NCBI GenBank assembly: GCA_026003195.1
Contig: BPGU01000002.1
Coordinates: 682,001-746,000, forward strand
Origin: Armatimonadota bacterium
GTDB taxonomy: Bacteria > Armatimonadota > HRBIN16
Direction of reading: 5' to 3'
Length of the DNA stretch: 64,000 nucleotides
Notes under the pieces: model-generated
The model's database searches: none
What the model was told of the DNA's origin: nothing
The model's input: the letters and a program-made list of their open reading frames with translations, nothing else
Shown: positions 16,758 through 30,101 of the stretch, one piece after another
Position numbering within the stretch: position 1 is the stretch's first letter
How the letters are laid out: every line of letters begins with the position of its first letter
Made by a program: the position numbers and the translations under genes

Positions 16758-16844
16758 GCCGACGTGGTGAAATTGGTAAACACGCTAGGTTCAGGGTCTA
16801 GTGCCCGAACGGGCTTGGGGGTTCGAGTCCCCCCGTCGGCACCA
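16758..16844 (+). tRNA. tRNA-Leu (anticodon CAG)
   Basis: An 87-base tRNA with a seven-pair acceptor stem (GCCGACG with CGTCGGC), genome-encoded CCA, a long class II variable arm (TGCCCGAACGGGCT) and the T arm GGGGGTTCGAGTCCCCC. The anticodon stem CTAGG/TCTAG closes the loop TTCAGGG, giving anticodon CAG for CUG codons. The 3' half from 16789 onward is repeated at 30043-30101, so this gene is the integration target and its 3' half is supplied by the element's end. Confidence 0.95.
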
Positions 16845-16847
16845 TTT
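16789..16847 (+). repeat. attL, left 59-base direct repeat
   Basis: This copy runs from the anticodon stem of tRNA-Leu through its CCA and three T residues. It is identical over 59 bases to 30043-30101. The flanking bases differ on both sides. Confidence 0.92.
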
Positions 16848-16898: not shown

Positions 16899-16929
16899 AG
16901 CCCACCTGCACAGTGAAAGCGGGTGGGCT
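16899..16929 (+). terminator. Hairpin between tRNA and integrase
   Basis: AGCCCACC (16899-16906) pairs with GGTGGGCT (16922-16929), directly before the integrase start codon. It could end the tRNA transcript or hide the integrase ribosome site. The T tract is weak. Confidence 0.5.
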
Positions 16930-16931
16930 TT

Positions 16932-17825
16932 ATGATGACAGTCACTAGACCGGCTTCGGATGTCGGCATACTGGAAGCACTGAACGACCGCATCCTGGCA
17001 TTGCAAGCACAGGGGGCTTCTCCATCTACCGCCGGGCACTACCGCCTGGTCATCGGCAGGCTGTTCTACTACAGGTACTGTAGACCGCGCCACCTGCTAC
17101 TGCTACGGGACATCACACCAGCGCACATCACGGAGTGGCTGGCAATCCGCAGACAGCAGGTAAACCACCGAACCATAGATAGCAACTGGCGGGTGCTACG
17201 AGCCTTCATGAACTGGTGCGTCAAGCATGGATACATCGACAGCAATCCCTGCGAACTCGTTGATCCGCCACGACGGCTGCCCGTGTTCAAACCAGATTGC
17301 CGTGAAGATGATGTGAGATGTGTCCTGGAAGCCTGTCCCAACACGCCGGTAGGCATCAGGGATAAGGCGTTCATCCTGTTCCTGCTTGACTCTGGCGTGC
17401 GGCTCCACGAAGCGCTCAAGCTGAAGGTCGCAGACCTGGCTGAGAGCATACCGGTCCAGGGCAAGGGCGGACGATGGCGAGTGGTGTTTGTGGAGCAGTA
17501 TACCCTGGATGTCGTCAGGGAATACGTCCGTGCATGGAAGCTGAAACCGGGCGATGCACTCTGGCAGGGCAGGCGCGGTGCACTCAGCACGGATGGAGCG
17601 AAGCACATCCTTGTGCGTGCAGGTGAGCGGGCAGGGGTGAAGCTGAGCGCACACAAACTGCGTCGTTCCTGCGCAACGTGGATGGCACGCAGTGGAGCAT
17701 CCTTAGAAGCCATCCGGCTGCAGTTAGGACACGCGGACATTCAAACAACACAGGGCTACCTGGCTTATCAGTTGGATGACGTGCAGAGAGAGCACAGGAT
17801 GTTCACACCGGTCAGGAGACTATGA
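16932..17825 (+). CDS. int: Tyrosine recombinase, integrase of the element
   Basis: A 297-residue site-specific recombinase. The N-terminal SAM-like DNA-binding domain (ASPSTAGHYRLVIGRLFYYRY through VLRAFMNWCVKHGYIDSNPC) precedes the catalytic domain. Active-site residues are all present: Arg in LLDSGVRLHEALKLKV, Lys in QGKGGRWRVV, HxxR in AHKLRRSCATWM, and His and the nucleophile Tyr in LGHADIQTTQGYLAY. Its place 90 bases inside attL, beside the tRNA, is the usual arrangement for tRNA-targeting elements. I start at ATG 16932; GTG 16923 is possible but lies in a hairpin. The stop overlaps the next gene. Confidence 0.95.
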   Translation: MMTVTRPASDVGILEALNDRILALQAQGASPSTAGHYRLVIGRLFYYRYCRPRHLLLLRDITPAHITEWLAIRRQQVNHRTIDSNWRVLRAFMNWCVKHGYIDSNPCELVDPPRRLPVFKPDCREDDVRCVLEACPNTPVGIRDKAFILFLLDSGVRLHEALKLKVADLAESIPVQGKGGRWRVVFVEQYTLDVVREYVRAWKLKPGDALWQGRRGALSTDGAKHILVRAGERAGVKLSAHKLRRSCATWMARSGASLEAIRLQLGHADIQTTQGYLAYQLDDVQREHRMFTPVRRL

Positions 17826-18476: not shown

Positions 18477-20768
18477 ATGGCTATGCGGCTAACAGACGAA
18501 CAGGTCGCTATCATAGAGCACCCCATCGGTTGCCACGCTAGAGTTCTTGCTGTAGCAGGGTCTGGTAAGACTTCCACCATGGTGAAGCGCATCCGTTATT
18601 TGTTTGAACATCATCATGTGACGCCCGATCAGATTCAGGTGTTGATGTTCAACCGGCTTGCTAAAGAGCAGTTTGTATACCGCCTTGCATCGGAAGAAGT
18701 TCCATATCACGAGTCTGTTCCTGTGAATACCTTCCATTCCGCCGCCTATGCAATATACGGTCATCTCGTTAAGAACGGCATCCTGCCAAATCCTGACTAC
18801 TGGATAGCCGATAGGGAAGAGATGTCGATATCGCGTATTCGTCGGGCTGTGGGAATGATCAATGCAAAGTATAACTTGTACGGTAATAACATGTTAGACG
18901 TGGAAGAAGCAAGGGAGTCTATCTCTCTATGGAAAGCGTCTATGATACCGCCGGAGCGGGCTGGGCATAAGTATAATCCATATTACGCTGAAGTGTATGC
19001 AGAGTATGAGAAGCTGAGAACTCAGGCAAACGGAGTAACGTTTGATGACATGCTTCTCACCGTTGTCCGGATATTAGAGAGCAACTCCGAGCTGCGTGAG
19101 AGATATGTGCGCCATGTGCGTTTCCTTATCGTAGACGAATACCAGGATGTGAACTACGTCCAGCAGCGTTTGATTGAGCTGCTCAGCAATGGACAGGCGG
19201 ATATCATGGTGGTCGGAGACGATGACCAGACCATCTACGAGTGGCGCGGAGCGCGTATAGAGTACATACGCAATTTCCCCCAAATCTTCAATGACCGTCC
19301 ATGTAAAGATTACACGCTAACACGCTCCTTCCGTTTTGGTCCCATTATTGCGCAGTGTGCGCATAACGTTATTCATAACAACAAGCAGCGTCATCCAAAG
19401 AAAGTGGTGGCGAATAGCATCTCGGCGGAAGGTAACATCTACGTAACAGCAAGCAATCAGTCACAGGTGTCATCCACTATTGACCAGTTCGTCAGCCTTA
19501 TTGTTGCCAGGGTGGCCGAGTCCGGCGGTCCTGCCCCCAACAATGAAGGCTGTCGGCCCGTCGTAGTTCTCGGAAGGACCTGGGCACAACTGGTAACCAT
19601 CGAGAGTGCGTTTCTCAAGCACAAGATACCGTATTGTCTGATTGGGCAGATGCCATTCATAGAACGCCATGAGACGCAACGAATGATTGAGTATTTAGTG
19701 CTCTCCATCAATTTCAAGTCGCCGGTCAATGACAGGCTGATCAGGATGACGCAGAATGTACTGAACTTCCCCCGTCGCTTCATTTCCAAAGAGTTTAGAG
19801 ATGAAGCGCGTCACATTATGTCTGGGAAACAAACCTTAGCGGACGCTCTCTCCAGTCTGGTACACAGCGCCCCACATCCAAGAGTTCAGCAACGTCTCAA
19901 AGAGATGTATGAAGTAATAGGATACATCAATGACCGTATCAGGGCTGAACAACCCATCTCTGCTAGTAACGCTCTCTCGCTCATCACCGAACGGTTCAAC
20001 TTGAACGAATACTTTAGAGATTTCTACGGACGAAGCGAAGCTTCCGAATCGCGCATGATGACGCTTCAGTCTCTGATATTTCTGGCGCAGAGCACCGGGC
20101 TGGGCGTACCCGAGTTCGTAGAGTATGTCCGACAGTTAGACCCCACGCAGGGCAAGCCGGAAGACGAATGCATCCCTGTCACAACTATCTTCCAGACCAA
20201 GGGGCTCGAGTTTGACTATGTATTCATCCCAAGCGCCATCGACGGATTCATGCCCGTAAGGCGTGACAATGAGAACCCGTGTTACGACACCGCGGGCATC
20301 GTGAAGGAACCGGAGATATCTGCTTGGGACGAGAGTGAACGCAGGCTCTTCTATGTTGGTATCACCAGGGCAAGAAAGGGTGTATACATCATGTCAACAG
20401 ATACTGCGGGAGATGCACAGCACGGGATGGACAACATACGCAAGATTGTCCCGTCACCTTATATCGCCGAGATGTTACACAAGCCCACGGCGGCGATTAT
20501 GAACAGCCTGCAGCGAATAGCAGCAGAACAGACCGCAGACCCTGCGGTGCTGACCACGCATTATGACAAGTATGGAAACCCCGAACCTGTCACTCAGATG
20601 CTGTTGGATTACTACCTGCCTGAGTTAGGATTGCCGGGCATTGCAGAAGCGGTGCGTAAGAAGGCTGAAGAAGTGAAGCAACGGAAGGTGGAAGAGAAAC
20701 CAACACCACCGCCGAAGCGAGAGAAGAAGTGGTGGGAAGAAATGCTTGAAGGAATACTGGGACGGTAA
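18477..20768 (+). CDS. UvrD/Rep-type superfamily 1 DNA helicase
   Basis: A 763-residue ATP-dependent 3'-5' type helicase. Motifs are in order: Q motif (LTDEQVAIIEHP), Walker A AVAGSGKTSTM, Ia (NTFHSAAYAIYG), Walker B LIVDEYQDVN, III GDDDQTIYEWRGA, IV (LTRSFRFG), V TIFQTKGLEFDYVF and VI ERRLFYVGITRARKG. The C-terminal tail is Lys/Glu/Pro-rich. It is complete and 100 residues longer than core Rep. It carries its own promoter. In the element it is a natural partner of the primase-polymerase at the replication fork, though a repair or anti-defence role is also possible. Confidence 0.93.
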   Translation: MAMRLTDEQVAIIEHPIGCHARVLAVAGSGKTSTMVKRIRYLFEHHHVTPDQIQVLMFNRLAKEQFVYRLASEEVPYHESVPVNTFHSAAYAIYGHLVKNGILPNPDYWIADREEMSISRIRRAVGMINAKYNLYGNNMLDVEEARESISLWKASMIPPERAGHKYNPYYAEVYAEYEKLRTQANGVTFDDMLLTVVRILESNSELRERYVRHVRFLIVDEYQDVNYVQQRLIELLSNGQADIMVVGDDDQTIYEWRGARIEYIRNFPQIFNDRPCKDYTLTRSFRFGPIIAQCAHNVIHNNKQRHPKKVVANSISAEGNIYVTASNQSQVSSTIDQFVSLIVARVAESGGPAPNNEGCRPVVVLGRTWAQLVTIESAFLKHKIPYCLIGQMPFIERHETQRMIEYLVLSINFKSPVNDRLIRMTQNVLNFPRRFISKEFRDEARHIMSGKQTLADALSSLVHSAPHPRVQQRLKEMYEVIGYINDRIRAEQPISASNALSLITERFNLNEYFRDFYGRSEASESRMMTLQSLIFLAQSTGLGVPEFVEYVRQLDPTQGKPEDECIPVTTIFQTKGLEFDYVFIPSAIDGFMPVRRDNENPCYDTAGIVKEPEISAWDESERRLFYVGITRARKGVYIMSTDTAGDAQHGMDNIRKIVPSPYIAEMLHKPTAAIMNSLQRIAAEQTADPAVLTTHYDKYGNPEPVTQMLLDYYLPELGLPGIAEAVRKKAEEVKQRKVEEKPTPPPKREKKWWEEMLEGILGR

Positions 20769-20784
20769 TGAAGGGAGATAAACC

Positions 20785-21432
20785 GTGAGATCGCGCATTC
20801 TGTTCGTCCTGCTTCAGGTGTTATGCATTGCTCTTGCTTCGACGGGAGCACCGGAGATTACCGGAACTGTCGTCGGTGTGCACGATGGTGATACGGTAAC
20901 CGTGCTCACCAAAGACCGGCAACAGTTCAAGATACGCCTGTACGGTATAGACGCCCCTGAGACCAGGCAACCGTTTGGTAACAGGGCTAAACGCTACCTG
21001 TCCGACCTGATATTCAACAAGCACGTTCGTGTCTCGGTGAAGGGTAAGGACAGGTATGGAAGGGTGTTGGGCGTTCTGTTCCTTAACGGCAAGGACATCA
21101 ACGCGGTCATAGTGAGAGACGGTTATGCCTGGGCGTATGTCAGATACTCCAGGCAATATGTGCTGCAGGAGAAGCAGGCAAGGTCAGCCAAACGCGGGCT
21201 GTGGTCTCAACATAATCCGGTTCCGCCGTGGGAATGGAGACATGGCGGTTCCGTGAAGCCATCGCAGCAACAAACAACCATAGACCCGTTGGAACGGATC
21301 GTATACATCACACGGACGGGAGAGAGATATCACGTTGCAGGGTGTCGGTATCTGGCGCGTAGCATGATACCGATTAAGCTAAAGGATGCACTGGCGTTAG
21401 GATACACACCATGCAAGATATGTAACCCATAA
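20785..21432 (+). CDS. Secreted thermonuclease-family nuclease with C-terminal Cys/His motif
   Basis: A 215-residue protein. A Sec signal (ILFVLLQVLCIALASTGA) is followed by the SNase OB fold: VVGVHDGDTVTVLTKDRQ, KIRLYGIDAPETRQPFG, VKGKDRYGRVLGVLFL and ARSAKRGLW. The Asp, Arg and Glu residues match the calcium-binding and catalytic positions. The last 45 residues form a separate module (RTGERYHVAGCRYL ending YTPCKICNP) with a His and three Cys suitable for zinc, as in other secreted nucleases and competence proteins. Start codon is GTG behind GGGAG. It lies 16 bases after the helicase and shares its transcript. Confidence 0.9.
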   Translation: MRSRILFVLLQVLCIALASTGAPEITGTVVGVHDGDTVTVLTKDRQQFKIRLYGIDAPETRQPFGNRAKRYLSDLIFNKHVRVSVKGKDRYGRVLGVLFLNGKDINAVIVRDGYAWAYVRYSRQYVLQEKQARSAKRGLWSQHNPVPPWEWRHGGSVKPSQQQTTIDPLERIVYITRTGERYHVAGCRYLARSMIPIKLKDALALGYTPCKICNP

Positions 21433-21434
21433 AC

Positions 21435-21463
21435 TTGACAATTTGCGAACAATGCGCTATTGT
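21435..21463 (+). promoter_or_regulatory. Sigma-70-type promoter for the HAF/dockerin-like gene
   Basis: TTGACA (21435-21440) and TATTGT (21458-21463) are 17 bases apart. The cargo gene downstream is therefore transcribed separately from the replication genes. Confidence 0.8.
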
Positions 21464-21490
21464 ACTGCTAAAGTTTGGGGAAAGGAGTGG

Positions 21491-22960
21491 ATGTTCGGGA
21501 TGCGTTCGTTAGCTCTACACATTACCGTCATGACAGCCCTGCTAGTCACATGTACACAAGCGGAGCGTTTGATATGGCTGGGTACGCTAGCTTCGGCACC
21601 AAGTAGCGCTACAGGTGTTTCTGCAGACGGTACACGAGTGTCTGGTTGGTACACTGTGTCAGGAGATTTCACCCGTGCGTTTCTGTGGCAGGACGGAGTC
21701 TTTCAAGAGCTGGGTACTTTGGGTGGGAACAACAGTGTCGCGACGGGCATTTCAGCAGACGGTAGTACTGTAATAGGGTATGCTGAGACTGTTGAAGGGT
21801 ATAAACGCGCCTTTCGCTGGAAGAGTGGTGCGATGCGCGACCTTGGCGTGCTGCCACTCGATACCAATTCCTACGCTTCTGATGTATCAGACGACGGACG
21901 AGTAATAGTCGGTTACTCCTACGGGACGGCTAGTAGACCACGCGCTGTTTGGTGGACACCAGCGTCAGGAATACAGCCCCTTTCTCTACCGGCAGACACT
22001 ACAGAAAGTTACGCTACGAGCGTCTCTGCAGATGGACGATTCATAACGGGGATACGACGCACAGGGAACACGGAGCCGTTTAGGGCGTTTCAATATGATA
22101 CCTTGACAGCAACCTACACCGAGCTACCGCCACTACTACCAGGTGCGTTATCCTTCGTAAACAGTATCGGCAGAGACGGCGTTATCAAGGTTGGGTTCAC
22201 AGTAACACCAGATGGAGATATCCCGACCAAGTGGTTTGAGACAACCCCTGTGCGTCTGGGGGGATTGGGTATCTTACGTGATGTCTCGGCTGATGGTAAG
22301 ATTGCGATAGGTCAGAGCCGTGGACTTGCGGCTCGATGGTCAGAGTATGGTGTTCCCGACTTCTTAGGGATAACATATAGCTTTCTATTGAACCGGGGTG
22401 ATGAGCTGCGGATTGCCGAGAGCATATCCCCTGACGGGCGATTCATCGTAGGACAGGGCTATGTTGGTAACTTGAACTGCAACATGGCTTACCTGCTCGA
22501 TACCGATGGTACGTACTCCATCAAGGGCAACATGGAACTTCGCGACTTCGTAGGAGACATCACCCGTGTACCTATCACCGTTCAGATGCGGCGATATGGG
22601 GTGATTGTGCGTTCCGAGACGGTCTATCTGGACGCTAACGGTAACTATGAAATAAGCAACGTGCCTTCTATGGAGTACGACATCACCTTCTACGCAAGAC
22701 CGTGGTTACGGGTCAACGTTAACGGCGTCCGTGTAGCTGGAGCCGACGTGACAGGACTAAACGTTGCCCTGATAAGCGGAGACATTGACGGCGATAACGA
22801 AGTGACACTATTCGACTTCGGAGAGCTGGTAGCTGCTTTTGGTAGTACACCAGGTGACACCAACTGGAACCGTTACGCAGATTTGGATGGTGATGAAGAA
22901 GTTACCCTGTTCGACTTCGGCATTCTGGTGCGCAACTTCGGCGCGATGGGGGATTGGTAG
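21491..22960 (+). CDS. Secreted HAF-repeat protein with C-terminal dockerin-like loops (element cargo)
   Basis: A 489-residue exported protein. A signal peptide (LALHITVMTALLVTCTQA) leads to a propeller-like run of HAF-type repeats, such as VSADGTRVSGW, ISADGSTVIGYAE, VSDDGRVIVGYSYG, VSADGRFITGI and ISPDGRFIVGQGY. A beta-sandwich segment then precedes two dockerin-like calcium loops (DIDGDNEVTLFDFGELV and DLDGDEEVTLFDFGILV) at the C-terminus. The loops are almost identical to those of the host proteins at 42958 and 3188. Start ATG 21491 follows AAAGGAG and lies downstream of the promoter; earlier in-frame ATGs do not. Function unknown; surface attachment or assembly is suggested by the loops. 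It has no evident role in mobility. Confidence 0.85.
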   Translation: MFGMRSLALHITVMTALLVTCTQAERLIWLGTLASAPSSATGVSADGTRVSGWYTVSGDFTRAFLWQDGVFQELGTLGGNNSVATGISADGSTVIGYAETVEGYKRAFRWKSGAMRDLGVLPLDTNSYASDVSDDGRVIVGYSYGTASRPRAVWWTPASGIQPLSLPADTTESYATSVSADGRFITGIRRTGNTEPFRAFQYDTLTATYTELPPLLPGALSFVNSIGRDGVIKVGFTVTPDGDIPTKWFETTPVRLGGLGILRDVSADGKIAIGQSRGLAARWSEYGVPDFLGITYSFLLNRGDELRIAESISPDGRFIVGQGYVGNLNCNMAYLLDTDGTYSIKGNMELRDFVGDITRVPITVQMRRYGVIVRSETVYLDANGNYEISNVPSMEYDITFYARPWLRVNVNGVRVAGADVTGLNVALISGDIDGDNEVTLFDFGELVAAFGSTPGDTNWNRYADLDGDEEVTLFDFGILVRNFGAMGDW

Positions 22961-23624: not shown

Positions 23625-23834
23625 ATGAAGAATAACGCCCTGTTCATCACTCAGCGTGAAGCATCAGAGCGTCTTGGTGTATCCACACAAACAGTGAATC
23701 AGTGGGTTCGCCAGGGCAGACTGCCTTCTGTCCGGTGGGGGAGAGTGAGACGCATCCCCGCCGCGGCGATTGAAGCATTCCAGCAGGAACTGCTGGAAAT
23801 TGCTCTGTCTCAACCGCGTCAAAACGTGAAATAA
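23625..23834 (+). CDS. Excisionase-like helix-turn-helix protein
   Basis: A 69-residue DNA-binding protein. The sequence FITQREASERLGVSTQTVNQWVRQGRLPSVRWGRVRRIP is the classic MerR/excisionase winged helix: a two-helix reader (ASERLGVSTQTVNQWV) followed by the wing (RLPSVRWGRVRRIP). The rest is a short helix. Such proteins act as recombination directionality factors or as repressors. It lies 84 bases upstream of the replication protein and probably heads that operon, so it may link excision to replication. Confidence 0.8.
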   Translation: MKNNALFITQREASERLGVSTQTVNQWVRQGRLPSVRWGRVRRIPAAAIEAFQQELLEIALSQPRQNVK

Positions 23835-23918: not shown

Positions 23919-26900
23919 ATGAACAACAGCACGTCTATTGTATCGGATAACAGGCACAAGAGTCAACAGGTAGACAACAGTATCCACGACGCATTCCTTC
24001 AACTGCTTCAGGAAGAGACCGACAGGCTGTTGGTCTCCTGCCCCTGCGCGGGTCACAACAACAACGACGCGAACCCTTCCCTACAGATAGGCATATACGA
24101 GAAGGAGACAAGGGCAGGGAAGGTTGTTAAGAGCATCACATTCAAGTGCTGGTCGCAGGGGCATACCGCGAAGGACGTCCTGCAGGTGGTAGGTGAAGAG
24201 ACCTTCATCCGCGCGTTCTGCGAATGGAAGGGCTTGGATGCCGAGTTTGTGTTGAGCACAGGGATGGTGCACGCGGAAGCGGATGAGTATCAGGTCTACT
24301 TTACATTTACCTGCAAGGACGCTTCATTCAAGAAGACGATAGACCAGAAGCGCTATCGCCATTTGCCTAAATTCTTCCGTTCTGAGAAGGGTTTCCCATC
24401 ATCGGAAGCCTTGTTCTATCCACTGCCCGCCGAGTCCGACTACATCCTTCTCTGCGAAGGAGAGACGGATGCGCTTGCGCTGGCTTCGGCGGGCTTTCAT
24501 GTAGCCGGTGCTGCGGGCAAGTCTAACTATCTCTCATCAAACAGCAAGATACTGCACGCGATGAAACGCTTCCAGCGCGTCTACCTGCTGGTGGAAGCGG
24601 ATGTGCAGGACGCGGAAGTGGACGCAGTGAAGAAGCATCCCCTGCTGGAGAAGACGGCAGTGTTCGTTATCCGAATGCAGGGGACGGGCTTCAAGGACGC
24701 CTGTGAGATGATGCAGGCAATGGGCAACCGTGCGCGGTTCAGGGATGTGTTCCAGCAGTTGATGGATGACGCCGAACGGCTGCTTCCCGAACCGCGCGTG
24801 GACTATCGCAAGCAGGCGCTGGAGAGTCAACACCATCAGGACGTGCAGGACAGCATCTGCATCAACGATGCAAACCTTGCTGCTATCACGAAACAGGCGT
24901 GGGAGATACTGGCGAAGCGCAATCATCCACCCCGGCTGTTCAAGCGCGGACACACTATCCTGCGCCTGTCCGTGGAAGACCAGGGCGGGCGGCAGGTGAA
25001 GGTGCTGCAGGAAGTAGATAAGAACATCCTTATCAACGAACTGTCAAACAACATCTTCTTCTACGAGACGCGCCTGTATAAGGGCAAGTCCTTCAACATT
25101 CCGTCCACGCCGAGCGAACGGCTTGCGCTGAACATGCTCTCCGAGCCTGCAGAGCGCATACCGCTTCCAGCACTCTATAGACTTGTGCACGCGCCCACAT
25201 TTGACCGTGATGGTAACCTGCTTGCGGTGGACGGCTATCACGCGGGGGTGCTGGTGGACATGGGCGGGCTGAAGGTACCCACTGTGAGCATGAAGCCTAC
25301 CAGAGAAGAAGTGCAACAGGCGGTAGGGCTACTGCGTGAGATGATGATTGACTTCCCGTTCGTGAGCGAAGCCGACCGCGCCCATGCTATCGCGCTGATA
25401 CTGAACCCCTTCATCCGAGAGATGATAGACGGACCGACCCCACTCTTCTTAATAGACGCGCCTGCGCCCGGTACAGGCAAGAGCAAGCTGGTGCAGTGCT
25501 GTCTCTGCCCCGCCGTGGGAGCGAACTATACCATAATGCAATACACCCCGGACGCCACGGAGATGGACAAGCGTATCCTCTCCTTCCTGCGTTCAGGAAA
25601 GCCCGTGGCATTCTTTGACAATGTGAAGGTAACCATCTCTTCTGCACCACTGGAAGTAGTATTGACAAGCTACCCGTCCTACTCTGGTAGATTGCTGGGC
25701 AAGAGCGAGACGGTCACGGCGCTGAACAACGTCACGTGGGTGTTGACCGCGAACAACCCGCAGGCGGGCACAGAGATAGCACGGCGTTCCGTTTCCATCA
25801 TGATGGACGCCGGAATGGAGAACCCGTATGAGAGAACAGGCTTCAAACATCACCTCCCTGCATGGGCATTTGAACATCGCGGCGAGCTGGTATGGGCTGC
25901 CTTAACCATCATCCAGAACTGGATAGCGCAGGGGAAGCCGCGCTGGCAGGGCAGAACACTCGGTTCGTTTGAAATCTGGTCGGAAGTCATGGGTGGAGTG
26001 CTGGAATGTGCAGGCATACCAGGCTTCCTGGACAACCTGCATGTAGCAATGGAGAAACACGATAGCGAGCGGATGGCATGGACATACTTCATTCGCGCGT
26101 GGTGGGATACCTGCAGAGACCAGCGCGTCACCATACGCGACCTTGTGAAGATAGCAGAAGACATCACAGAACTCAACATGCCAGATGGAAGCGAACGGGC
26201 TAAATCCACATGGCTTGGTAAACATATACAGCGTAATCTCAATAGACCACGCGCAGGCTTCGTCATCATAGAGAAGGGCGCGGACAGGGATAAGGCGCGT
26301 TCGTTCTCTCTTAAACCCGCCGAGAATTGTAAGATAACTAATGAAAGCGCGGAACGTGCGGAACATGCGGAACTTCTAAGCCAATGCTCGGCGGTACATA
26401 TAGAAGGGTCGAACAGTGGGAAACAGGTTCCGCATGTTCCGCATGTTCCGCACCAGCCTGAAGTTGATGAAGACCCCTTCGCGGATGGAGAGCCTGCTGC
26501 GGTGGATGCGGGTGATGCGGGGGATCGAACCGAACGATCGCGTGTACATATAGAAGGGTCGAACAATGGGAATCATCACCCGCATCCCCCGCATCACCCG
26601 CAAACCTGCACCGATGAAGACCCGTTCGCGGATGGAGAGCCTGCTAAGGATGCGCCCGGTGGTGATGTTCATCTCTTCATGAAGCTGCTGGACGCGGCGC
26701 AACAGAATGAGAAGCTGGCGTTTGCGCTGGGCAGGATACTGGTATCGCTGCGTGACATACTTCTATCCCTTCGCGAGTGGGAAGCGCGTCGTGTAGAGTA
26801 TAGCCCAGACGCGCAGGAGCTTCTCTCCTGTTTCGTGGACGACGTGGTTCGTTTCTGTGTGCGAGATGTGCAACACTCCACCATCCGCGTCCTGCTGCAC

Positions 26901-28976
26901 GCCCTGTTCACCCTGCGCGGGCTGGAAGTGGTGCAGGTCGGCAACGATGCCGTGGTGCACGGTGCACGGCTGAAGCACGAGCCACCACAACCGCAGTTAC
27001 CGCTGGATGTGAGCCCTGATGAACCGAAGAAGGACAGGCAGCAGGCACGGATAGAGCGTGCTATAGCGCGTGCAGAAGAGACGCTGGATTCGCTGGACTA
27101 CAACATTCCAGAACATCAAGAACATAAGGAGATGGTTACCATGACCGACAAACACTACATGATACTGAACAAGACCCGCGTACCTGTGATAGACGATCCT
27201 GAAGGCGTGGATATTCCTGAAGTTGAACTGCCCGACGCCCCTGCGTGGAGCACGGTGAAGTGTGCGGTGATAGACATAGAGACCAGTGGGCTTGACCCTT
27301 ACGCAGAAGACGCGCGTATCCTTGCAATAGGCTGGAAGGATACCGTACGGGAGCATGTGTGGTCGGGCGAGAACGAGTATGAGATACTGCGCCGTTTCCT
27401 GCTTGCACTGAAGAGAGAACAGCCCGACATCGTGGCGGGGCATAACATCATGGAGTTTGACCTGCCATACATCATTGCCCGATGTCGCGCGTATGGTCTT
27501 CATGCACCGTTCCGCATAGCAAATTACACCATGAAGGTCGGGCATACAAGCGGGACGCTTCGTTCTGAAGAGATAACCTTCCACCCTGTCTGGTATGTGG
27601 GGCAGGATACACTGTTTGTAGACACCCTGCATCTTGTCTGTAGATATGACTACTTCATGAGAACTATGAGTGGTTACGACCTGAAGACTGCTGCACGCGA
27701 ACTCTGCGGTCGTGAACGGCAGGTAACGCTGGATCACGATAACATCCATCGCGCGTTTGAGAGTGATCCCGAAACCTTCCGGCAGTACCTGATAGATGAC
27801 CTGCGCGATGCATGGGCGCTGCTGGAAACGCTTGCACCGGCTCATCACTATATAGCCTGTATGCTGGACTATCCCTACCATCGGGTATGGACGGCAGGGT
27901 TCGGTTCAGTATGGGAGAACCTGCTGGAGCGTTACTACAACATCAGTCGTGATGCTGCGTATCAGATGGCTGAACCTAAGCGAACATATCGTGGTGGAAT
28001 GGTGATAGGCAGGAGTGGCTTCTTCAAGGGCTGTTCTAAGATAGACGTTTCCAGCTTGTATCCTACTGTGATGTTACAGTATGGTGTGCACAGCAAGAAG
28101 GACACAGAGCGCATAAGCCTTGCCTATCTCAAGCGTATGACAGAGATGCGACTGGAGTTGAAGGCGCGGGCGAAGGCAGGGGATAAGGAAGCCGATTTCA
28201 TACAGGAAGGGCTGAAGCGGGTTATCAACAGCAAGTATGGATTCCTTGGGTCTGAAATGGGCTTCAACGATATGGACGCTGCAGAGCGCGTGACCACCAT
28301 CGGCAGGTCTATATTGCTGCGGATGGTAACTGCGCTGGAGCAAGCGGGCTGCGTGGTAGTGGAAGCGGACACGGACGGCATCATCGTGCAGCACCCGGAA
28401 GAGATAGACGTGTTGTCTTTAGCACAGAGCGTGCTACCAGCCGGCTTCAAACTTGAACTGGACTGGAGCGGGAAGACAGTGTTCGTGATGGCGCGGAAGA
28501 ACTACATCGTGTTCAACGCCGACGGTTCTATACACGAGCGGAAGGGCATAGCATACAGGTCGCGCGACAGGAACGCGCTGAGCAAGGAGTGCATGATAGA
28601 GTTTCTGCGCAAACTGATAGTTGAATGTGAAGACGCAGCACGTCAATACGCGCGTGAGATACTGCATCGCGTTTCCGCCGGTGAAGCGTGGGAGCTGGTG
28701 GTGGAGCGGAAGCGCGTATCGGACAAGAACATGCACAAGGGCTATGCATTTGAAGTGCAGGCGGTAGAAGCCGGTTATGCTGTAGGGGATAAGGTGGAGT
28801 GCGCCTATCTGGATGAAGCAAAGAAGCGATACTCCTTCCGTCCTGAAGACGGCTATGACCGCGCCCATTACGCCCGCGAATGGGTGAAATCCATCCGTGA
28901 GACACTGAACCTGATACACAACCCCAAATCCGAATGCACAACGAAGGAAGGTGAAGATGATGTTGACGCTGGATAA
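23919..28976 (+). CDS. Primase (TOPRIM) - AAA+-like ATPase - family B DNA polymerase fusion
   Basis: A 1685-residue replication protein. N-terminus: primase zinc-like site (C41PCAGH46, C77WSQGH82) and TOPRIM (CEGETDAL, E180-D184, then LLVEAD). Middle: ATPase with Walker A APGTGKSK (K521), a FFDN Walker B-like motif and sensor TWVLTANNP. A low-complexity linker near residues 810-910 holds two palindromic modules. C-terminus: exonuclease motifs DIETSG (D1119, E1121), GHNIMEFDLPY and YDLKTAARELCG, then polymerase motif A DVSSLYP (D1376), B KRVINSKYG (K1433) and C DTD (D1484, D1486). A-B and B-C gaps of about 57 and 51 residues leave no room for the TPR1/TPR2 insertions of protein-primed polymerases. 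Start ATG 23919 follows AAAGGAG; GTG 23865 would add 18 residues overlapping a hairpin (23861-23880). All motifs look intact. Confidence 0.92.
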   Translation: MNNSTSIVSDNRHKSQQVDNSIHDAFLQLLQEETDRLLVSCPCAGHNNNDANPSLQIGIYEKETRAGKVVKSITFKCWSQGHTAKDVLQVVGEETFIRAFCEWKGLDAEFVLSTGMVHAEADEYQVYFTFTCKDASFKKTIDQKRYRHLPKFFRSEKGFPSSEALFYPLPAESDYILLCEGETDALALASAGFHVAGAAGKSNYLSSNSKILHAMKRFQRVYLLVEADVQDAEVDAVKKHPLLEKTAVFVIRMQGTGFKDACEMMQAMGNRARFRDVFQQLMDDAERLLPEPRVDYRKQALESQHHQDVQDSICINDANLAAITKQAWEILAKRNHPPRLFKRGHTILRLSVEDQGGRQVKVLQEVDKNILINELSNNIFFYETRLYKGKSFNIPSTPSERLALNMLSEPAERIPLPALYRLVHAPTFDRDGNLLAVDGYHAGVLVDMGGLKVPTVSMKPTREEVQQAVGLLREMMIDFPFVSEADRAHAIALILNPFIREMIDGPTPLFLIDAPAPGTGKSKLVQCCLCPAVGANYTIMQYTPDATEMDKRILSFLRSGKPVAFFDNVKVTISSAPLEVVLTSYPSYSGRLLGKSETVTALNNVTWVLTANNPQAGTEIARRSVSIMMDAGMENPYERTGFKHHLPAWAFEHRGELVWAALTIIQNWIAQGKPRWQGRTLGSFEIWSEVMGGVLECAGIPGFLDNLHVAMEKHDSERMAWTYFIRAWWDTCRDQRVTIRDLVKIAEDITELNMPDGSERAKSTWLGKHIQRNLNRPRAGFVIIEKGADRDKARSFSLKPAENCKITNESAERAEHAELLSQCSAVHIEGSNSGKQVPHVPHVPHQPEVDEDPFADGEPAAVDAGDAGDRTERSRVHIEGSNNGNHHPHPPHHPQTCTDEDPFADGEPAKDAPGGDVHLFMKLLDAAQQNEKLAFALGRILVSLRDILLSLREWEARRVEYSPDAQELLSCFVDDVVRFCVRDVQHSTIRVLLHALFTLRGLEVVQVGNDAVVHGARLKHEPPQPQLPLDVSPDEPKKDRQQARIERAIARAEETLDSLDYNIPEHQEHKEMVTMTDKHYMILNKTRVPVIDDPEGVDIPEVELPDAPAWSTVKCAVIDIETSGLDPYAEDARILAIGWKDTVREHVWSGENEYEILRRFLLALKREQPDIVAGHNIMEFDLPYIIARCRAYGLHAPFRIANYTMKVGHTSGTLRSEEITFHPVWYVGQDTLFVDTLHLVCRYDYFMRTMSGYDLKTAARELCGRERQVTLDHDNIHRAFESDPETFRQYLIDDLRDAWALLETLAPAHHYIACMLDYPYHRVWTAGFGSVWENLLERYYNISRDAAYQMAEPKRTYRGGMVIGRSGFFKGCSKIDVSSLYPTVMLQYGVHSKKDTERISLAYLKRMTEMRLELKARAKAGDKEADFIQEGLKRVINSKYGFLGSEMGFNDMDAAERVTTIGRSILLRMVTALEQAGCVVVEADTDGIIVQHPEEIDVLSLAQSVLPAGFKLELDWSGKTVFVMARKNYIVFNADGSIHERKGIAYRSRDRNALSKECMIEFLRKLIVECEDAARQYAREILHRVSAGEAWELVVERKRVSDKNMHKGYAFEVQAVEAGYAVGDKVECAYLDEAKKRYSFRPEDGYDRAHYAREWVKSIRETLNLIHNPKSECTTKEGEDDVDAG
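26349..26451 (+). repeat. Palindromic module 1 inside the polymerase gene
   Basis: The left arm 26349-26373 is built of GCGGAACRT units and pairs over 25 bases with the right arm 26427-26451, with a single G-U wobble. The 53-base loop contains a conserved core (26394-26422). In protein the arms read ERAEHAE and PHVPHVPH, in frame with the gene. Confidence 0.9.
26505..26600 (+). repeat. Palindromic module 2 inside the polymerase gene
   Basis: CGGGTGATGCGGGGGAT (26509-26525) is the perfect complement of 26584-26600. The loop has the same core as module 1 (26544-26572, 28 of 29 bases identical), but the arms use a different nine-base unit (GATGCGGGT/G). A shared 33-base block follows each module (26466-26498 and 26613-26645). 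Confidence 0.9.
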
Positions 28977-29316
28977 GGAGCTGCGGCTGGGCTTCGTGCC
29001 CGCCGCTGGCTGGTATGACGCTGAAGTGGTCAACATAGAGACCGTGCTGGTGAACGGAACGGAGACGAAGCTGCGCTTCGCCTTCCGGCTGGACACCGGG
29101 CATCTTGCATACATGTCCTGCAATCTCTCCCATGACCCGAAGTCCAACCTTGCCCGCTTGTGGACTACCTTGACAGGGAAGGACAGCGCAACGATACGTT
29201 TAGCAGAACTGCTGGGCAAGCGCTGCAGGGTGTATGTAGAGCGTTACGAGACTATCAACAGAGTATTCCGCGTGGAAGGTGGTGAGACAGATGGTATATG
29301 TCGCCGAACTGCTTGA
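28957..29316 (+). CDS. Small replication-operon protein, possible single-strand-binding-like fold
   Basis: A 119-residue protein whose start overlaps the polymerase stop; ATG 28957 follows GAAGGAAGG. GWYDAEVVNIETVLVNGTETKLRFAFRLD and SCNLSHDPKSNLARLWTTLTG recall phage DUF669-type or OB-fold proteins that coat single-stranded DNA. I base that only on the pattern of strands and on its place behind a polymerase. The C-terminus (KRCRVYVERYETINRVFRVEG) is also beta-rich. Alternative: an unrelated accessory factor. Confidence 0.55.
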   Translation: MMLTLDKELRLGFVPAAGWYDAEVVNIETVLVNGTETKLRFAFRLDTGHLAYMSCNLSHDPKSNLARLWTTLTGKDSATIRLAELLGKRCRVYVERYETINRVFRVEGGETDGICRRTA

Positions 29317-29554
29317 CGGGAAGCGAGCACGCTTCGATCCCGATACCGCCACCCTGCTGGGGAGCGGCGAAGGCTGGACTCTCTACCGAACACGTCATCA
29401 GCGTTACATCATCGTTGAAGAAGACGAAGGCGAGCTGGACGTGTATGAGATAGCCTACCACGCCGCGGTCGGGATGCTGGAAGACGCCGACCAGTTGAGC
29501 GATGAAGGTCGGCGCGTACTGGACGACCACATCCAGTCGCTGCCCGAAGCGTAG
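29291..29554 (+). CDS. Small acidic protein, unknown function
   Basis: Eighty-seven residues from ATG 29291, overlapping the previous gene by 26 bases. A beta-rich first half (VYVAELLDGKRARFDPDTATLLG, then GWTLYRTRHQRYIIVEEDEGE) is followed by a helix (ADQLSDEGRRVLDDHIQSL). Similar short proteins of plasmids and phages, with a phrase like TLYRTRRGRYV, are uncharacterised. It lies in the replication operon. Confidence 0.55.
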   Translation: MVYVAELLDGKRARFDPDTATLLGSGEGWTLYRTRHQRYIIVEEDEGELDVYEIAYHAAVGMLEDADQLSDEGRRVLDDHIQSLPEA

Positions 29555-29592
29555 TTTGTTTATGAATACAACAATAACAAGGAGTGATGAGC

Positions 29593-29955
29593 ATGGCAGG
29601 ACGCCATACGAAACTCACGCCCGACCTGATCCAGGAAGCGGTGGAACTCTTCAAGCGCGGATACCAGCACCAGGAGATATACATGGCGCTGGGCATCCCG
29701 CAAACCACGTGGTTCAGCTGGTTGAACCGCGGGCGGGACGGCAAGCAGCCCTACGCGCAGCTGGTGCAGGCGCTGGAGCAGGCGAAGGTGGAGCGTCGGT
29801 GCTACCTGCGCAGCCTGATACAGGCGAAGGCAGAACAGAACTGGGTCTGCGCTGCGTGGCTATTAGAGAGAGAGTTTCCGCATCTCTACGCGAACCCCGC
29901 CGTACGATTCAAACACGCCATGGATGAAGAAGAGATAGACATCATCGACAGCTAG
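29593..29955 (+). CDS. Helix-turn-helix protein, terminase-small-subunit-like
   Basis: A 120-residue protein that begins AGRHTKLTPDLIQEAVELFKRG. A homeodomain-like reader follows (YQHQEIYMALGIPQTTWFSWLNRG), then a helical C-terminus with an acidic tail. The pattern matches phage terminase small subunits and related DNA-binding proteins. No large terminase, portal or capsid gene is present, so DNA packaging is unlikely unless a helper supplies it; a regulatory role or a role at the element end is as plausible. AAGGAG lies eight bases before ATG 29593. Confidence 0.65.
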   Translation: MAGRHTKLTPDLIQEAVELFKRGYQHQEIYMALGIPQTTWFSWLNRGRDGKQPYAQLVQALEQAKVERRCYLRSLIQAKAEQNWVCAAWLLEREFPHLYANPAVRFKHAMDEEEIDIIDS

Positions 29956-30042: not shown

Positions 30043-30101
30043 GTTCAGGGTCTAGTGCCCGAACGGGCTTGGGGGTTCGAGTCCCCCCGTCGGCACCATT
30101 T
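30043..30101 (+). repeat. attR, right 59-base direct repeat
   Basis: An identical copy of 16789-16847 containing only the 3' half of the tRNA sequence. The stop codon of the next minus-strand gene begins one base beyond it (30102-30104). Confidence 0.92.

Follow-up and report, generated by a model that had tools for sequence, protein, structure and literature searches.

Can one gene supply an integrative element with primase, helicase and DNA polymerase in a single protein, and does that protein work as one enzyme? The question is raised by positions 23919–28976 of the window, by which we mean the whole stretch of 64,000 nucleotides analysed here (Armatimonadota bacterium, assembly GCA_026003195.1, contig BPGU01000002.1, positions 682,001 to 746,000). 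We consider it probable that this gene encodes a replicase dedicated to copying the 13.25-kb element integrated in a tRNA-Leu gene. As read from sequence and models, its one chain begins with a DnaG-like zinc/TOPRIM module, continues with an AAA+ helicase of the D5/SF3 type and ends in a family B polymerase (PolB) that proofreads and depends on a primer. Positions below are those of the window, and all features placed on it lie on the + strand.

The open frame and its helicase and polymerase modules

In the ORF analysis of the window, 23919–28976 is a single open frame of 1685 codons (1685 aa) without any stop. The start is the ATG at 23919, which is favoured by the Shine-Dalgarno sequence AAAGGAG upstream over an alternative GTG 54 nt further upstream. 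The zinc/TOPRIM part occupies residues ~41–290, the ATPase 318–803, a linker ~804–1074, and exonuclease plus polymerase 1109–1660; on motif inspection the catalytic motifs of ATPase, exonuclease and polymerase are all complete. Pfam gave a clear match only for the C-terminal PolB exonuclease and polymerase (DNA_pol_B_exo1, 4e-11; DNA_pol_B, 8e-10), PHROG matched the ATPase (phrog_10537, an ATPase family, 2e-83), and the TOPRIM part was weak (E 0.05, below the Pfam cut-off). An AlphaFold2 model of residues 1–1094, built from an alignment of 39 viral relatives, yielded an SF3-helicase ATPase fold and a TOPRIM part of moderate confidence. An earlier note, made from the letters of the window, had claimed that primase-like, ATPase/helicase and PolB modules are fused in a single 1685-residue frame; open frame, motifs, Pfam and PHROG profiles, AlphaFold and Foldseek agree on this.

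The ATPase module (residues 318–803, 24870–26327; phrog_10537, model and Foldseek) was modelled with high confidence over residues 310–800, with ATPase pLDDT mostly 85–98. Walker A lies at residues 514–522 (APAPGTGKS), followed by Walker B D567, sensor N612 and R622/R623; the set that defines D5/SF3 helicases, an AAA+ fold with Walker A/B, sensor and Arg finger, is therefore complete. The nearest solved folds in Foldseek are ASFV PrimPol, monkeypox E5, vaccinia D5 and the SaPI5 primase-helicase, and the top match among viral predicted structures is Pas55 of phage phiAsp2. By its predicted fold this ATPase belongs with the replicative helicases of the D5/SF3 type, which upholds the earlier, broader label "ATPase/helicase-like" and sharpens it. 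At the N-terminus its relatives bear an AEP/PrimPol in some cases and a TOPRIM in others, so the primase appears exchangeable.

The PolB module consists of a 3'-5' exonuclease (residues 1117–1300, 27267–27818; PF03104 and motifs) with D1119/E1121, D1181 and D1294, and a family B polymerase (residues 1358–1660, 27990–28898; PF00136 and PDB matches) with D1376, K1433 and D1484/D1486. The spacing is 57 from motif A to B and 51 from B to C, the same values that had earlier been judged too short for the TPR1 and TPR2 insertions; twelve PolB relatives gave 56–65 and 51–52, and phi29 polymerase, measured alike, 134 and 73, which bears that judgement out. A protein-primed or primer-independent PolB (phi29, pipolins) was rejected because this spacing leaves no TPR1/TPR2 insertions. 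Without them a primer is expected, and established knowledge of PolBs points to a primer-dependent enzyme.

In the tree the PolB clusters with cyanobacterial plasmid and phage PolBs (support 100/100) on a long branch (1.87), separate from the phylum's cellular PolBs, among them that of the host (L050). Capture of the host PolB was rejected, as L050 lies in another clade, with the caveat of long branches. The closest relatives, cyanobacterial plasmid and phage PolBs of 601–630 aa, are free-standing, whereas the PolB described here is fused; of the three plasmid PolBs examined, each has a clamp motif at its end, and two are encoded next to dnaN and dnaX. A clamp-motif-like tail of the QxSLF type (e.g. 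QQPSLF) is also carried by 20 of 20 cellular PolBs from the phylum; it is absent at the C-terminus of the fused enzyme and of the cyanophage enzyme. An internal QPQLPLD (residues 1024–1030) is a weak candidate clamp motif.

The integrative element and its tRNA-Leu site

The replicase gene belongs to an element of 13,254 bp between perfect 59-bp direct repeats. Its target is a tRNA-Leu (CAG) gene (16758–16844; ARAGORN, Rfam); attL (16789–16847) lies within the tRNA gene and matches attR (30043–30101) exactly. The main genes are all on the + strand and comprise a tyrosine integrase (16923–17825; PF00589 9e-27, phrog_1); a UvrD/Rep-like SF1 helicase (18477–20768; PF00580 3e-49, phrog_1967); a staphylococcal-nuclease-like protein (20785–21432; PF00565 1.7e-26) and a secreted dockerin-bearing protein (21443–22960; PF00404 5e-6), both probably cargo; an excisionase/AlpA-like HTH protein whose gene immediately precedes that of the replicase (23625–23834; TIGR01764 2.7e-13, above cut-off, and phrog_66); an SSB-like protein with an OB fold, whose gene overlaps the end of the replicase gene (28957–29316; AF2 model and fold match); a small protein without family match in profile searches (29291–29554); and a terminase-small-subunit-like (TerS-like) protein (29584–29955; phrog_4102 1.1e-23). 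The att repeats and the two profiles PF00589 and PF00580 support the description, in the earlier note, of a tRNA-targeted element with an integrase and a second helicase. For the OB protein, the single-sequence AF2 model had a pLDDT of 61 and its best fold match was PrgE of pCF10 (E 1.9e-3); homologs sought in phages gave none. A second copy of the element was sought in the genome (G000); the search met only its nuclease and a small gene again, both on contig C5 and with no replicase. There (L161, 9674–10332) a nuclease gene copy, 80% identical, and a piece of the element's small membrane gene stand beside unrelated genes.

In two genomes of the same genus (G184 and G185) this tRNA-Leu gene harbours islands of ~7 kb whose integrases are 38–39% identical to that of the element. 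The G184 island (L186, 1190–8192) carries a PrimPol-SF3 protein (884 aa) and a TerS-like gene (phrog_4044 6.7e-21), the G185 island (L187, 1411–8363) a Prim-Pol-AAA_25 protein (697 aa) and an RNase H-SSB protein. As these replication proteins differ from ours, the site takes small replicons with differing replication modules, and the fused replicase is one of the modules entering it.

TerS-like genes occur in two of the three elements at this site, and the element could be a phage satellite (PICI-like) with its own polymerase, packaged via TerS by a helper phage. Set against the PICI features given in PMC6092414, it has an att site, an integrase, a regulator/excisionase (the AlpA-like HTH protein), a replication gene and, by profile only, TerS, and no structural genes were matched in it; its size, the tRNA site and the TerS-like gene of the G184 island agree with such a life-style. 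On contig C7 (L179, 7142–11830) the genome that carries the element also has TerL and portal genes; they are likely those of a prophage, a candidate helper. The SaPI/PICI primase-helicases (SaPI5, PriRep1) share the helicase fold with the replicase, and the life-style of their elements may match; unlike it, they are without a polymerase domain in the structures matched. TerS-like HTH proteins, however, can also be found where no recognisable phage genes are near (L180), and UvrD, nuclease and dockerin genes are atypical for PICIs. We regard a satellite as a serious possibility, if not the expected outcome; it is compatible with a dedicated replicase.

The linker and the N-terminal module

The main doubts over the mechanism of the replicase concern possible separate expression of PolB and the variant TOPRIM motif. 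The linker is mostly disordered, with low model confidence for residues 805–919 and helices predicted at 916–999, and searching it as a known domain found no homologs. A possible internal start at 27141, with AAGGAG 9 nt before the ATG, would give a free PolB of 611 aa (27141–28976) and could make the fusion partly cosmetic: the parts would mostly act apart, free PolB being made beside the long product, and the linker would be a former intergenic or origin region minus its stop. Such a history would suit a disordered linker, and 611 aa is near the 601–603 aa of the free plasmid relatives. The Shine-Dalgarno of 27141 equals that of the real start in strength, is the third-best among 118 in-frame start codons and lies at a domain boundary; the two in-frame sites that beat it by Shine-Dalgarno energy, however, are both away from domain boundaries, so 27141 may be due to chance. 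The linker also stays open over ~270 codons and includes the predicted helices. On balance we find it rather doubtful that the parts mostly act apart.

The zinc-binding-like module (residues 41–82, 24039–24164; motif and alignment to L053) has the site C41-x-C43-x2-H46 ... C77-x4-H82. The TOPRIM module (residues 172–290, 24432–24788; alignment, AlphaFold model and motifs) has the acidic residues E180 and then E226-A-D228, where relatives show D-x-D. The N-terminus aligns (E 2e-14) to L053, a TOPRIM protein with a zinc module whose TOPRIM is backed by PF13155, and the primase/helicase profile phrog_239 covers residues 143–291 (1e-7); AlphaFold2 modelled the TOPRIM part with moderate and the zinc part with low confidence. 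Among DnaG-type features the zinc module and E180 are present, and DxD is replaced by E-A-D. As E226 replaces the first Asp of DxD and the small-residue/Gly pattern after it is lost, the TOPRIM might be degenerate, and the replicase might have to draw its primers from host DnaG or elsewhere. Yet the change from Asp to Glu is conservative, another TOPRIM protein of the same genus (L052) likewise has E-x-D, and neither the zinc module nor E180 has been lost; a replicase that lacks its own primase seems to us somewhat unlikely.

Two hairpins lie in the linker, in frame and 150 bp apart. Hairpin 1 (26349–26451; folding z-score -8.4) has 9-bp repeats in its arms, and hairpin 2 (26507–26602; folding z-score -4.5) is a diverged tandem copy of it. 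Both share an identical 21-nt core that is absent elsewhere in the genome. The iteron-like 9-bp repeats that form the arms differ between the copies and are still self-complementary, 7 pairs of the first register being altered on both sides; arms that have diverged yet stayed complementary suggest selection on the structure. A dispersed genomic repeat was rejected (two copies only in the genome), as was an Rfam family (no Rfam match). The simplest idea is that the hairpins are candidate origin sequences inside the replicase gene, much as the phage lambda origin is situated within gene O; alternatively, they may form a structured RNA or be left over from an earlier intergenic region. A TerS-bearing, satellite-like element with its whole replicase in one chain and its origin, the two iteron-like hairpins, in the helicase-polymerase linker would be a further step along this line, and we deem that full combination unlikely.

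Related fusions and the proposed mode of replication

Throughout 291 genomes of the phylum, separate genes encode ATPase and PolB in every case except this element, which alone has them fused. A second TOPRIM + SF3 + PolB fusion was not found among the matches listed in these genomes, in phage/plasmid records, in close-relative contigs and in viral contigs; these searches were pattern-based, with ORF-level checks of viral contig matches, and absence from them is no proof. PolB was also sought in the ORFs of 160 ATPase-bearing locus records (two overlapping viral scans) and found in none. The combination is new within everything searched; single-chain primase-helicase-polymerase replicases are already known, and the earlier note, which knew of no named family with this order, went too far.

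HelPrimPolB is a named group of helicase-primase-PolB fusions (PMC7544198). GP55 of lactococcal phage 1706, which we infer from its domain content to be a member, resembles the replicase in having helicase (of the SF3/DUF5906 kind), primase and proofreading PolB in one chain; it acts in vitro as helicase, primase, polymerase and exonuclease, and it replicates DNA de novo from one chain (PMC12205980). The replicase shares with HelPrimPolB an SF3 helicase N-terminal to PolB in the same chain. It differs in that the order in GP55 and HelPrimPolB is helicase-AEP-PolB; an AEP/PrimPol domain is absent from the replicase chain, which has the TOPRIM/zinc module instead, and its PolB falls outside the divergent HelPrimPolB clade, judged by the lack of a significant match to GP55 and by its joining the cyanobacterial plasmid/phage PolBs in a tree without GP55. 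GP55 is also a phage protein, whereas the replicase is from a small integrative element, and the two have no significant similarity (best BLAST E 0.07; GP55 PolB is divergent).

Pas55 (Actinoplanes phage phiAsp2) has a TOPRIM-like part, a homologous ATPase (27% identical across 656 columns, E 5e-49) and a polymerase in the same order as the replicase, but that polymerase is of family A (PF00476). The viral fusion protein L210 (IMG/VR contig 3300032058_000001; L210:2451-6743, 1430 aa in one frame) has the order primase-like, ATPase, PolB, with a PolB 31% identical; its ATPase, unlike ours, is RecA/RepA-like AAA_25, and its N-terminal part is AEP-like by motif only. Two further viral PolBs were noted: at L260:4041-7255 PolB comes first, then primase-like and DEAD-helicase-like matches in the same frame, and at L165:825-3728 a ~350-residue interruption, possibly an intein, stands before the motif C part.

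For a dedicated replicase speak the complete ATPase, exonuclease and polymerase motifs and an ATPase fold that matches SF3 helicases, including SaPI5 and Pas55; the exact att repeats with integrase and excisionase, and the other self-replication proteins at the same tRNA site; the grouping of the PolB with plasmid and phage PolBs, without the clamp-like tail of cellular PolBs; and GP55, which proves that a primase-helicase-PolB chain can replicate de novo (PMC12205980). Against it stand the E-x-D TOPRIM below the Pfam cut-off, the low-confidence zinc region and the single known copy of the architecture. Integrase and excisionase would excise the element as a circle, on which a helicase hexamer would assemble and unwind the DNA; the TOPRIM module would lay RNA primers, the tethered PolB would extend them, and the OB protein would coat the single strands. 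Processivity would come from the tether in place of the beta-clamp.

The earlier note had held that homologs which are always separate genes would imply an assembly join; this separation is the rule within the phylum but fails more widely, in the same-order fusions Pas55 and L210. That an assembly or binning artefact fused two genes, as the single known copy and the separate genes of the phylum might suggest, is judged very unlikely, the replicase lying with unbroken frame inside a 1.197-Mb contig and a complete att-bounded element, and similar fusions being found in other phages.

In biotechnology the replicase might serve as a replication enzyme made of a single protein. With TOPRIM/SF3/PolB here, beside AEP/SF3/PolB and TOPRIM/SF3/PolA, phages and mobile elements have at least three distinct ways of joining primase, helicase and DNA polymerase in one chain; L210 would be the fourth. 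This variety of fusions makes it testable whether a tether may stand in place of a clamp, and which module orders and primase types such a fusion tolerates.
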